32,559 nt of DNA from a candidate division KSB1 bacterium (GTDB lineage: Bacteria > Zhuqueibacterota > JdFR-76 > DREG01): NCBI GenBank assembly GCA_022566355.1, contig JADFJB010000046.1, forward strand, positions 1 through 32,559, written 5' to 3'. The notes below the pieces were generated by a model. It had not been told where the DNA came from. It worked only from the letters and a program-made list of their open reading frames with translations, and searched no databases. Below, one piece after another: positions 30,169 to 32,559 of the stretch (the stretch's first letter is position 1; every line of letters begins with the position of its first letter). The translations under genes and the position numbers were made by a program.

Positions 30169-31461
30169 TTAATCCGATTTTTTTAGTGGTTCAACTTTCA
30201 ACATTAATCCATCCAGTACTGCACATACTTTGACCTTTTCTTTTGGTTTAATGGGTGATTCTGCAACAGCATTCCAGAATTCACCATGAACCTTAATTCT
30301 TCCCTCCGGATTAATTTTTTCAATAGCCACTCCAACTTCACCAATAATACCTTCTGCTCCCGACACCGGTTTTTGTTTCTGTGCTTTGAGACCGAATCCT
30401 ATAGCAAATAGAAAAAAGGCTGCGGTAAGAATCACTGCCGGCAAAATTACGGAAAGAGAAACTTTAAAAAAAGGTTCGGGCGAATCGAACAACATTAAAG
30501 AGCCTAATAGCATAGATATTACTCCTCCAATACTTAACAAGCCATAACTCACAACTTTTATCTCTAATAAAAACAAAATGATAGCAAAGATAATCAACAT
30601 CAATCCTGCATAATTTAACGGAAGCGTTTGCATCGCAAAGAATGCTAAAATCAGAAAAATAACGCCAACAATGCCGGGTAAAACAGATCCGGGATTCGAA
30701 AGTTCAAATATGATTCCATACATACCTAATAACATCAAAATATAGGCAATATTCGGATCTGATATTTTATCCAAAATGCGGAAACGCCAATTCATTCTAA
30801 TCGTAATAATTTCCGCATTTTCAGTATGCAAAATATATTTCTGGTCATCCATATCAACTTCTTTGCCGTCAATAACACTCAAGAGGGAATCTAACGTTGG
30901 GACAATATAGTCAATTACATTAAGTTCCAGGGCTTCCTTTTCTGTTATTGAAACACTCTCGCGAACAGCTTTTTCCCCCCATTCAACATTGCGGTTTCTC
31001 TTCTCAGCAAGCGAGCGGATATAAGCTGCCGCATCATTCGTCACTTTTTCCATTATTGCAGATGTTGAATCGGTTTGTCCAATAGTAACCGGATGAGCAG
31101 CCCCAATATTTGTCCCGGGAGTCATTGCAACAATATGAGCAGAATAACAAATAAACACACCTGCAGAGGCGGCTCGTGAACCACTCGGATTAACATAAAC
31201 AATTACAGGAATTCGAGAAGCCAAAATATCTTTAATGATAGTCCGCATGGATTCCATAAGCCCACCGGGAGTATCCATTTGTATAATGAAGCATTCGGCG
31301 CCATCTTCCTGTGCCTGATCTAAAGCTTCGTGAATGAATTTTGCTGAAACAGGGTTAATCACTCCATTTAATTCGAGGACGTAAACCGGTCTTTTATCTT
31401 GGGTAAAACTCGATCCGTAAATAGAAAACAGCAATACGAATACACATAATAATCTCTTCAT
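30169..31461 (-). CDS. NfeD-family membrane serine protease (ClpP-like) with NfeD C-terminal domain
   Basis: 430 residues from the ATG at 31459-31461, which starts a clear signal peptide ('MKRLLCVFVLLFSIYGSSFT') and has GAGG 5 nt upstream. A TTG 14 codons earlier is less likely. The ClpP-like domain (about 26-210) has 'MDTPGGL', nucleophile Ser99 in 'SRAASAGV' and probable general-base Lys154 in 'LAEKRNR' (compare the Ser97/Lys138 dyad of PH1510). Four or five transmembrane helices follow (about 235-345). A soluble OB-fold NfeD domain ends the protein (about 365-425, 'GIIGEVGVA', 'GRIKVHGEFWNA'). It probably processes the slipin encoded downstream. This is the long form of NfeD. Confidence 0.94.
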   Translation of the reverse strand: MKRLLCVFVLLFSIYGSSFTQDKRPVYVLELNGVINPVSAKFIHEALDQAQEDGAECFIIQMDTPGGLMESMRTIIKDILASRIPVIVYVNPSGSRAASAGVFICYSAHIVAMTPGTNIGAAHPVTIGQTDSTSAIMEKVTNDAAAYIRSLAEKRNRNVEWGEKAVRESVSITEKEALELNVIDYIVPTLDSLLSVIDGKEVDMDDQKYILHTENAEIITIRMNWRFRILDKISDPNIAYILMLLGMYGIIFELSNPGSVLPGIVGVIFLILAFFAMQTLPLNYAGLMLIIFAIILFLLEIKVVSYGLLSIGGVISMLLGSLMLFDSPEPFFKVSLSVILPAVILTAAFFLFAIGFGLKAQKQKPVSGAEGIIGEVGVAIEKINPEGRIKVHGEFWNAVAESPIKPKEKVKVCAVLDGLMLKVEPLKKSD

Positions 31462-31614
31462 AAAAACCTCAAAATTCACTTCAACCGATTCATTTGGAGA
31501 CAATTGTTTTTGATTGATACTAATTGAAAATAAATTATTTAAAGAGTTTTCTTAAAATACTCCATTTTTGTGCTTAAAGATTCATTGAAATCTGTCCGTC
31601 CCAACTGAAAATCA

Positions 31615-31664: not shown

Positions 31665-31877
31665 ATGACAAGTTTAATAGCCCGCGCAGAAGAATTTATG
31701 GAAGATGTACAAATAGTTTGCAAAAATAGAAATTCTAGCATTTCTTGGGATAAATTAATAGTTACAATTAAAAGCAACGAAGTAGTTGCATGGTCCTTTG
31801 ATTGTTTAACCTGTGACCGTTCGAGCTGTCCTCTTAATTCATCAATGTCTTGTAGTTCAATATCTAAACCAGATTAA
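31665..31877 (+). CDS. Small Cys-rich hypothetical protein, 70 aa
   Basis: 70 residues from the ATG at 31665, which has AAAGGA 6 nt upstream; an ATG five codons earlier overlaps that ribosome site and is less likely. The N-terminal half is amphipathic and charged. The C-terminal third has four closely spaced cysteines (Cys-x-x-Cys-x4-Cys, then another six residues later) among Ser/Asp residues, which could bind a metal. There is no signal peptide. It stands alone on the plus strand, facing away from the divergent nfeD gene. I do not recognise it. The Shine-Dalgarno and possible sigma-54 box support a real gene, but the small size keeps this uncertain. Confidence 0.5.
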   Translation: MTSLIARAEEFMEDVQIVCKNRNSSISWDKLIVTIKSNEVVAWSFDCLTCDRSSCPLNSSMSCSSISKPD

Positions 31878-32200
31878 AATTAGTTAATTCAGCAATAAGC
31901 ACCTTGAACAGTGATAGTATATTACATGGAGGTATGATAAGCAAGGTAATTGTTTTCAGGTTTGAATAGTTAAAATCTTCTTACTAGATTATAATTTTTT
32001 AAGTATACGGATTGATGTTCCGATATAATAAGTAGATTTATTAAGCCCATGTTCTTTACATTTTTTTTTATCTAAAAAAGTTGCTAAATAACCTAATTGA
32101 TTGGATTTTTACTTATTTTTTAGATATGTTTTTTTCATCAAATTTCCCTGCTATTTGGTGGCTCTTATGAAAAAGGACTAATAAGATAAAAATGGGAATT
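31878..32200. other. AT-rich gene-poor stretch
   Basis: No gene is supported here. It holds an 11-codon ATG frame with a GGAGG site just before it (about 31926-31968), too short to call. A 10-bp A/T inverted repeat is also present, ATCTAAAAAA (32070-32079) with TTTTTTAGAT (32116-32125). The DNA is very AT-rich with several long T runs. Confidence 0.4.
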
Positions 32201-32338
32201 TAGCTCTGGGCGTCCAAAACAGGCCTCGTCCCGGATGGGAGTGTTACAACACCGGAGGACGTTTGAAACGTATCAGGCGGTACCCACTGTACTACAGTGA
32301 GGCCCTTTTTCCCTAGCCACCGTAGCAGGGATTTTTTT
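32201..32338 (+). ncRNA. Candidate structured RNA: multi-hairpin element ending in an intrinsic terminator
   Basis: A GC-rich island in AT-rich DNA. GGCCTC (32222-32227) pairs with GAGGCC (32299-32304) and encloses three local hairpins. The first is GTC-CCGG (32228-32234) with CCGG..GAC (32252-32260), topped by a GTGTT/AACAC palindrome. The second is ACGTTT/AAACGT (32259-32271), and the third CACTGTA/TACAGTG (32285-32299). T5 follows the closing stem. A second hairpin, CCCT-GC/GC-AGGG (32311-32330), then runs into T7, giving a plus-strand terminator. I cannot match it to a riboswitch, tmRNA, SRP RNA, RNase P or tRNA. It could also be a mobile-element or retroelement fragment. The minus-strand open frame across it looks incidental. 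Confidence 0.45.
32311..32338 (+). terminator. Intrinsic terminator at the end of the multi-hairpin element
   Basis: CCCT (32311-32314) pairs with AGGG (32327-32330), extended by GC/GC across a bulged A, with a 7-nt loop. After one A it is followed by seven T (32332-32338). Confidence 0.6.
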
Positions 32339-32470
32339 AAAATTACAATAGTAGAAAATTTTATTAAGGGGAGTAAGGCACAAATCTTATAGACACTAAT
32401 AAACTTCATATACCAAAAATAAATTAACCTGAATTATTCACAAACCTCATAACTGATATATAAAACTGTC

Positions 32471-32537
32471 ATTCCCGTCCCGCCTGGGCGGGATTATCGG
32501 GAATCTTGTTACACAGGCCACACATAGATCCCCGATA
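32471..32537. repeat. Nested palindromic repeat (REP/dRS3-like), cut by window edge
   Basis: ATTCCCG (32471-32477) pairs with CGGGAAT (32498-32504), and inside it TCCCGCC (32478-32484) pairs with GGCGGGA (32487-32493). TATCGGGAATC (32496-32506) can also pair, with one mismatch, with GATCCCCGATA (32527-32537). The 'GTCATTCCCG...CGGGAATC' form is that of dispersed extragenic palindromes or MITE ends in many bacteria. No other copy is visible in this window. Confidence 0.6.
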
Positions 32538-32559
32538 AAAAATCAGGCTGTCCGAGAAC

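Follow-up and report, generated by a model that had tools for sequence, protein, structure and literature searches.

A divergent 6S RNA gene below the Rfam cut-off in a candidate division KSB1 bacterium

We are nearly certain that the single 6S RNA (ssrS) gene of this candidate division KSB1 bacterium lies at 32140-32338 (extent approximate) on the plus strand of the 32,559-nucleotide stretch of DNA analyzed here (the window), and that it is a divergent, orthodox member of its family. Members of the 6S family are abundant transcripts of about 200 nt whose levels peak in stationary phase; these small RNAs mimic an open promoter and shut down RNA polymerase once growth stops. The analysis establishes homology to 6S RNA, the strand, the approximate boundaries, a covarying rod made up of closing stem, central bubble and apical arm, occurrence in a single copy and a conserved genomic neighborhood. 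A preliminary description of the same DNA had marked 32201-32338, which is the 3′ two-thirds of the larger element, and left out the 5′ arm at 32140-32200. Two things hid the 6S gene: its sequence has diverged too far to reach the standard Rfam cut-off, and its 5′ arm fell outside the marked interval.

The Rfam 6S RNA model (RF00013, positions 1-187) aligns over its full length to 32142-32335 on the plus strand, with 29.0 bits and an E-value of 8.8e-4 in the sub-threshold Rfam listing. Because this score falls short of the 46.4-bit gathering cut-off of RF00013, which is an annotation threshold and not a biological feature, the default scan leaves the window blank; the Rfam check proposed in the preliminary description therefore returns nothing at the cut-off but a full-length match below it. 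Among the weaker Rfam matches listed, no family outscores RF00013 at the element. Hrs1 (minus strand, E 0.1) and mir-7552 (E 8.4) were dismissed as chance matches, and a search of the window for tRNA and tmRNA found none.

Alignment A1 brings together 42 relatives' 6S sequences, from loci located by RF00013 and without the window; it served to build a lineage covariance model, R1. R1 finds 32142-32335 on the plus strand with the whole model (positions 1-188) at 103.3 bits and an E-value of 3.3e-21; the second-best match within the window has an E-value of 1.2, and a search of the whole genome returns exactly one place. Among sense-strand members, R1 scores the window copy lowest (103 bits; others 105-173). 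An RF00013 search of the organism's own whole genome did not report the element, although the window-level scan shows the match, an absence probably due to a loose first-look filter. A plain DNA search with the window reaches RF00013 loci in seven relatives (G005, G006, G019, G032, G035, G054 and G058), and those in G019, G032 and G054, DNA-level homologues of the window, score above Rfam's own cut-off for 6S. Both these shared loci and the R1 match thus support homology to accepted 6S genes. Judged from its sequence, the element is a 6S RNA of the RF00013 family, below threshold in Rfam and unambiguous with the lineage model.

Several features of the preliminary description are indeed in the sequence. 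The contrast in GC with AT-rich flanks holds (G+C 0.55 at 32200-32299 against 0.20-0.26 just upstream), as do the local palindromes TCCCGGATGGGA (32229-32240), GTGTTACAACAC (32241-32252), ACGTTTGAAACGT (32259-32271) and CACTGTACTACAGTG (32285-32299), the T5 at 32306-32310 and the terminal T7. What had to be given up are the boundaries and the proposed closing stem. Taken alone, 32190-32350 folds no better than dinucleotide shuffles (z -0.34 on the plus strand, -1.04 on the minus strand). Once the 5′ arm is added, the fold of 32138-32338 reaches -72.1 kcal/mol (z -4.29), and none of 200 shuffles does as well. The supposed 6-bp closing stem, in which GGCCTC at 32222-32227 faces GAGGCC at 32299-32304, is not the conserved structure by the pair test in relatives: four of its six positions pair there, mostly by way of near-invariant letters that form part of other conserved helices; the remaining two fail in most relatives (paired in 7 of 44 and 15 of 48). 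The second hairpin, CCCTAGCCACCGTAGCAGGG at 32311-32330, is present and is followed by T7 at 32332-32338, but it competes with the conserved closing stem. Both proposals are mostly mispairings that come from cutting off the 5′ arm; the element was mis-paired because only two-thirds of a rod-shaped RNA had been marked.

The rod is closed by an inverted repeat between AAATTTCCCTGCTA at 32140-32153 and TAGCAGGGATTTTT at 32323-32336, a closing stem (helix 1) with 98.8% of cells paired across the 42 relatives. In the minimum-free-energy fold it continues with GGTGGCT at 32157-32163 paired to AGCCACC at 32315-32321. Its 3′ strand, assigned from the inverted repeat and the pair table, runs into the T7 (32323-32338), and stem and T-run together probably act as a terminator; most relatives likewise have a T-run behind CAGGG(A/T). 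Below the central bubble, 32169-32177 pairs with 32303-32311 (the P2 or downstream helix), where the window keeps eight of nine pairs in the R1 alignment, three of them with both sides changed. From what is known of the family, we take 32169-32177 to be the template that a pRNA would copy. The 5′ side of the central bubble, 32178-32193, is unpaired in the consensus, and the pRNA start site would be expected at its left edge; this strand is without the CAACACC present in most of the phylum. The apical (internal) arm at 32194-32285, delimited with the R1 alignment and a pair-by-pair table, contains helices 32194-32200/32279-32285, 32205-32213/32268-32277, 32217-32220/32261-32264 and 32224-32225/32257-32258, and these helices 3-6 are covarying or near invariant. 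On the 3′ side of the bubble, the CACTGTACTACAGTG hairpin (helix 7, 32285-32302) has 89.9% of cells paired in relatives, and it sits at the position equivalent to the 3′-CB hairpin described for other 6S RNAs in PMC8876501.

Covariation was assessed for a structure consisting of the closing stem, the helix below the bubble, the four-helix apical arm and the hairpin in the bubble's 3′ side. In the relatives alone, 93% of cells are paired, 21 pairs have changes on both sides, and the covariation score is 0.265, compared with 0.163 for shuffled alignments and at most 0.076 for slid structures. A refit that includes the window has the same outcome, with 26 such pairs; since in this refit the alignment was made to follow the structure and includes four antisense rows, the test on relatives alone is the cleaner one. 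Closing stem, central bubble and apical arm thus have covariation support above all shuffled and slid controls, and the search for homologues and the covariation check proposed earlier both came out in favor of a conserved RNA. Of the 41 consensus pairs, the window retains 38: 28 are the commonest pair, four are changed on one side and six on both; the other three are broken. Two of the compensated pairs, 32217-32218/32263-32264, are swaps of U-A to A-U. The A-U swaps within 32217-32220/32261-32264 help to create the ACGTTTGAAACGT palindrome, which is probably what the preliminary description noticed; relatives mostly read GTAAAAAACG at this position and form no such hairpin there.

The gene appears to be an independent, single-copy transcription unit, with the T7 after its closing stem and a promoter motif that recurs in relatives and is weak in the window. 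In 43 of 46 relatives, TTGAC occurs in the 60 bases that precede the 6S start, where about 2.8 would be expected from shuffles. No TTGAC lies within 60 bases upstream in the window; the candidate sigma70-type promoter (32097-32126, plus strand) is TTGATT at 32097-32102, an 18-base spacer and TAGATA at 32121-32126, a weak match whose degenerate hexamers were placed by eye beside those of G002. About 640 bases away, at 30169-31503 on the minus strand, lies a divergent gene for an nfeD-type membrane protease (Pfam NfeD_membrane, NfeD1b_N and NfeD). The same family is upstream and divergent at the 6S loci of at least 28 relatives, a lower bound since flanks of only 1.5 kb were available for 30 loci, and also, by coordinates, in G002; a Peptidase_S58 gene is common upstream at other 6S loci. 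Between nfeD and the 6S gene, 31665-31877 (plus strand) is a small, cysteine-containing ORF of about 70 aa with no Pfam match. Of the relatives searched, only G001-G004, which belong to the same order, have matches to it (45-65% identity for the best ones); in G002 and G003 the matching ORF likewise precedes the 6S gene and has the same orientation.

Downstream, the genes differ among relatives (Mg-chelatase of ComM-like type, STAS, aldolase-like, histidine kinase-like), and most are encoded on the opposite strand; no conserved same-strand gene was seen there. In 16 relatives (e.g., G010, G016, G019 and G024) an ORF of one protein cluster lies directly downstream of 6S on the opposite strand, and that of G010, the one tested, encodes a STAS-domain protein. 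STAS domains are used by anti-sigma-factor antagonists, so that such a neighbor beside a regulator of the sigma holoenzyme is intriguing and possibly a coincidence. The element is single copy in this 4.6-Mb genome, where further copies amount to chance matches of 14-24 bases, and there is about one per relative. The contig ends 220 bases downstream of the element. Its right end, 32440-32559, is one copy of an interspersed repeat, which contains CATTCCCGTCCCGCCTGGGCGGGATTATCGGGAATC and lies 100 bases downstream of the 6S gene; the repeat matches 27 places in the genome including its own, five others being nearly full-length at 92-95% identity, and the assembly probably broke there because of it.

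These data allow the alternative readings to be weighed. The preliminary description was right that this is an independent small RNA, as the conserved covarying structure, the sigma70-type promoter motif upstream in relatives and the 3′ T-run indicate, and it went astray in assigning no class and in offering a riboswitch-like leader or a mobile element. An end of a retroelement, intron or transposon might be suggested by the interspersed repeat 100 bases away, but this repeat is separate and lies outside the element, and several copies or a mobile gene, as expected of such an end, were not found: the element occurs once in this genome, and about once per relative, in a conserved neighborhood. 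We rejected this candidate, and its likelihood is negligible. Barely more credible is a riboswitch, or another cis-acting leader, regulating a gene past the end of the contig; the terminator-like end with T7 would suit it, and the next gene is out of view. A leader RNA is disfavored because the gene that follows varies between relatives and usually lies on the opposite strand, and because the structure is that of a 6S rod.

To an equally slight degree, the blank Rfam scan at gathering threshold and the unusual multi-hairpin tip could be taken to mean that this is an independent structured small RNA of a new class with no relation to 6S, as the heading of the preliminary description suggests. 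Against this reading stand the full-length 6S alignment, the 103 bits obtained with a model built from RF00013-found loci and the DNA homology to loci above Rfam's 6S cut-off (G019, G032 and G054); the DNA search and the R1 match refute it. Marginally less improbable, though still very improbable, is an RNA like Ms1, a similar rod whose partner is the core RNA polymerase and not the holoenzyme with its sigma factor. In structure, Ms1 and 6S RNA are related (PMC9130861), and sequence does not reveal binding partners. However, Ms1 was described from Actinobacteria (PMC9130861), and the element matches the 6S sequence-structure model itself. A 6S RNA remains the reading that we adopt.

According to PMC8876501, 6S RNA mimics an open promoter and keeps the sigma70-type holoenzyme occupied; it also templates a pRNA, whose synthesis begins on the 5′ side of the bubble, and the ensuing refolding frees the polymerase. 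We infer by analogy that the RNA encoded here would follow this ordinary 6S mechanism of promoter mimicry toward sigma70 RNA polymerase with release by pRNA synthesis, and the window's anatomy offers the parts: bubble strands at 32178-32193 and around 32285-32302, the helix 32169-32177/32303-32311, an apical arm and a 3′-bubble hairpin. If the family pattern holds, an RNA of roughly 195 nt would accumulate as growth slows, its central bubble would imitate an open promoter and occupy the housekeeping-sigma holoenzyme, and many promoters would fall silent. Once nucleotides return, the polymerase would begin a short pRNA on the 5′ side of the bubble and extend it through the helix strand 32169-32177. 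The pRNA hybrid would then refold the RNA, leaving the 3′-bubble hairpin at 32285-32299 free to form, and the polymerase would be released.

The apical end of the rod carries a feature of the order. Tip folds place two adjacent hairpins, TCCCGGATGGGA and GTGTTACAACAC, inside CCTC/GAGG at 32228-32255, and two adjacent hairpins of differing sequence occur in all five 6S sequences of the order (the window, G002, G003, G005 and G006). In other members of the phylum the tip forms at most one hairpin, a comparison confined to script-delimited tips and in which several mis-delimited ones were not counted. The case for the fork rests on its recurrence in all five sequences because the isolated tip of the window is unremarkable against shuffles (z -0.13). 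It is conceivable, and in our judgment unlikely, that a forked apical tip evolved in this order, with two adjacent hairpins replacing a single loop, and could recruit a protein or alter the contact between the '-35-like' arm and sigma, adding lineage-specific control atop normal 6S function.

Across the phylum, RF00013 has matches in 47 of 59 genomes searched, 23 above and 24 below the cut-off, and R1 finds at least one 6S locus in 53 of 58 related genomes. The R1 search returned no 6S in G001, G004, G023, G048 and G050; three of these genomes are incomplete (77-85%), and G023 (100%) and G048 (94%) are not. One relative, G056, has two 6S genes (C97:2040-2230 and C207:6187-6380), reflecting duplication or assembly contamination (estimated at 5%). 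A search of the accessible literature for 6S RNA together with Caldithrix found no paper. What looked like an unknown RNA is resolved as a familiar global regulator; the assignment to an established kind of RNA is confident, in a phylum whose annotation is poor. Of interest here are the corrected annotation, a minor lineage-specific tip and the lesson on thresholds: the Rfam 6S threshold misses about half of the phylum's 6S genes, which the lineage model recovers with very low E-values. The group also gains a ready 6S alignment and a conserved nfeD-6S neighborhood.

Among known systems, the element is closest to 6S RNA/SsrS (RF00013), with which it shares a length of about 195 nt, closing stem, central bubble, apical arm, full-length model alignment, 3′ T-run and single copy, and from which it differs in divergence (29 versus 46.4 bits) and in its forked two-hairpin tip. 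With the 6S RNAs of its own phylum (42 in A1; closest G002, G003, G005 and G006, the four from its order that share the fork) it has 38 of 41 consensus pairs in common and, in many, the nfeD neighbor; unlike them, it has the lowest score, A-U for U-A at 32217-32218/32263-32264 and a 5′ bubble strand lacking CAACACC. Ms1 RNA of Actinobacteria is likewise an RNA polymerase-binding RNA structurally related to 6S (PMC9130861), but it belongs to another lineage and binds core polymerase, and it was compared here through the 6S model match only.
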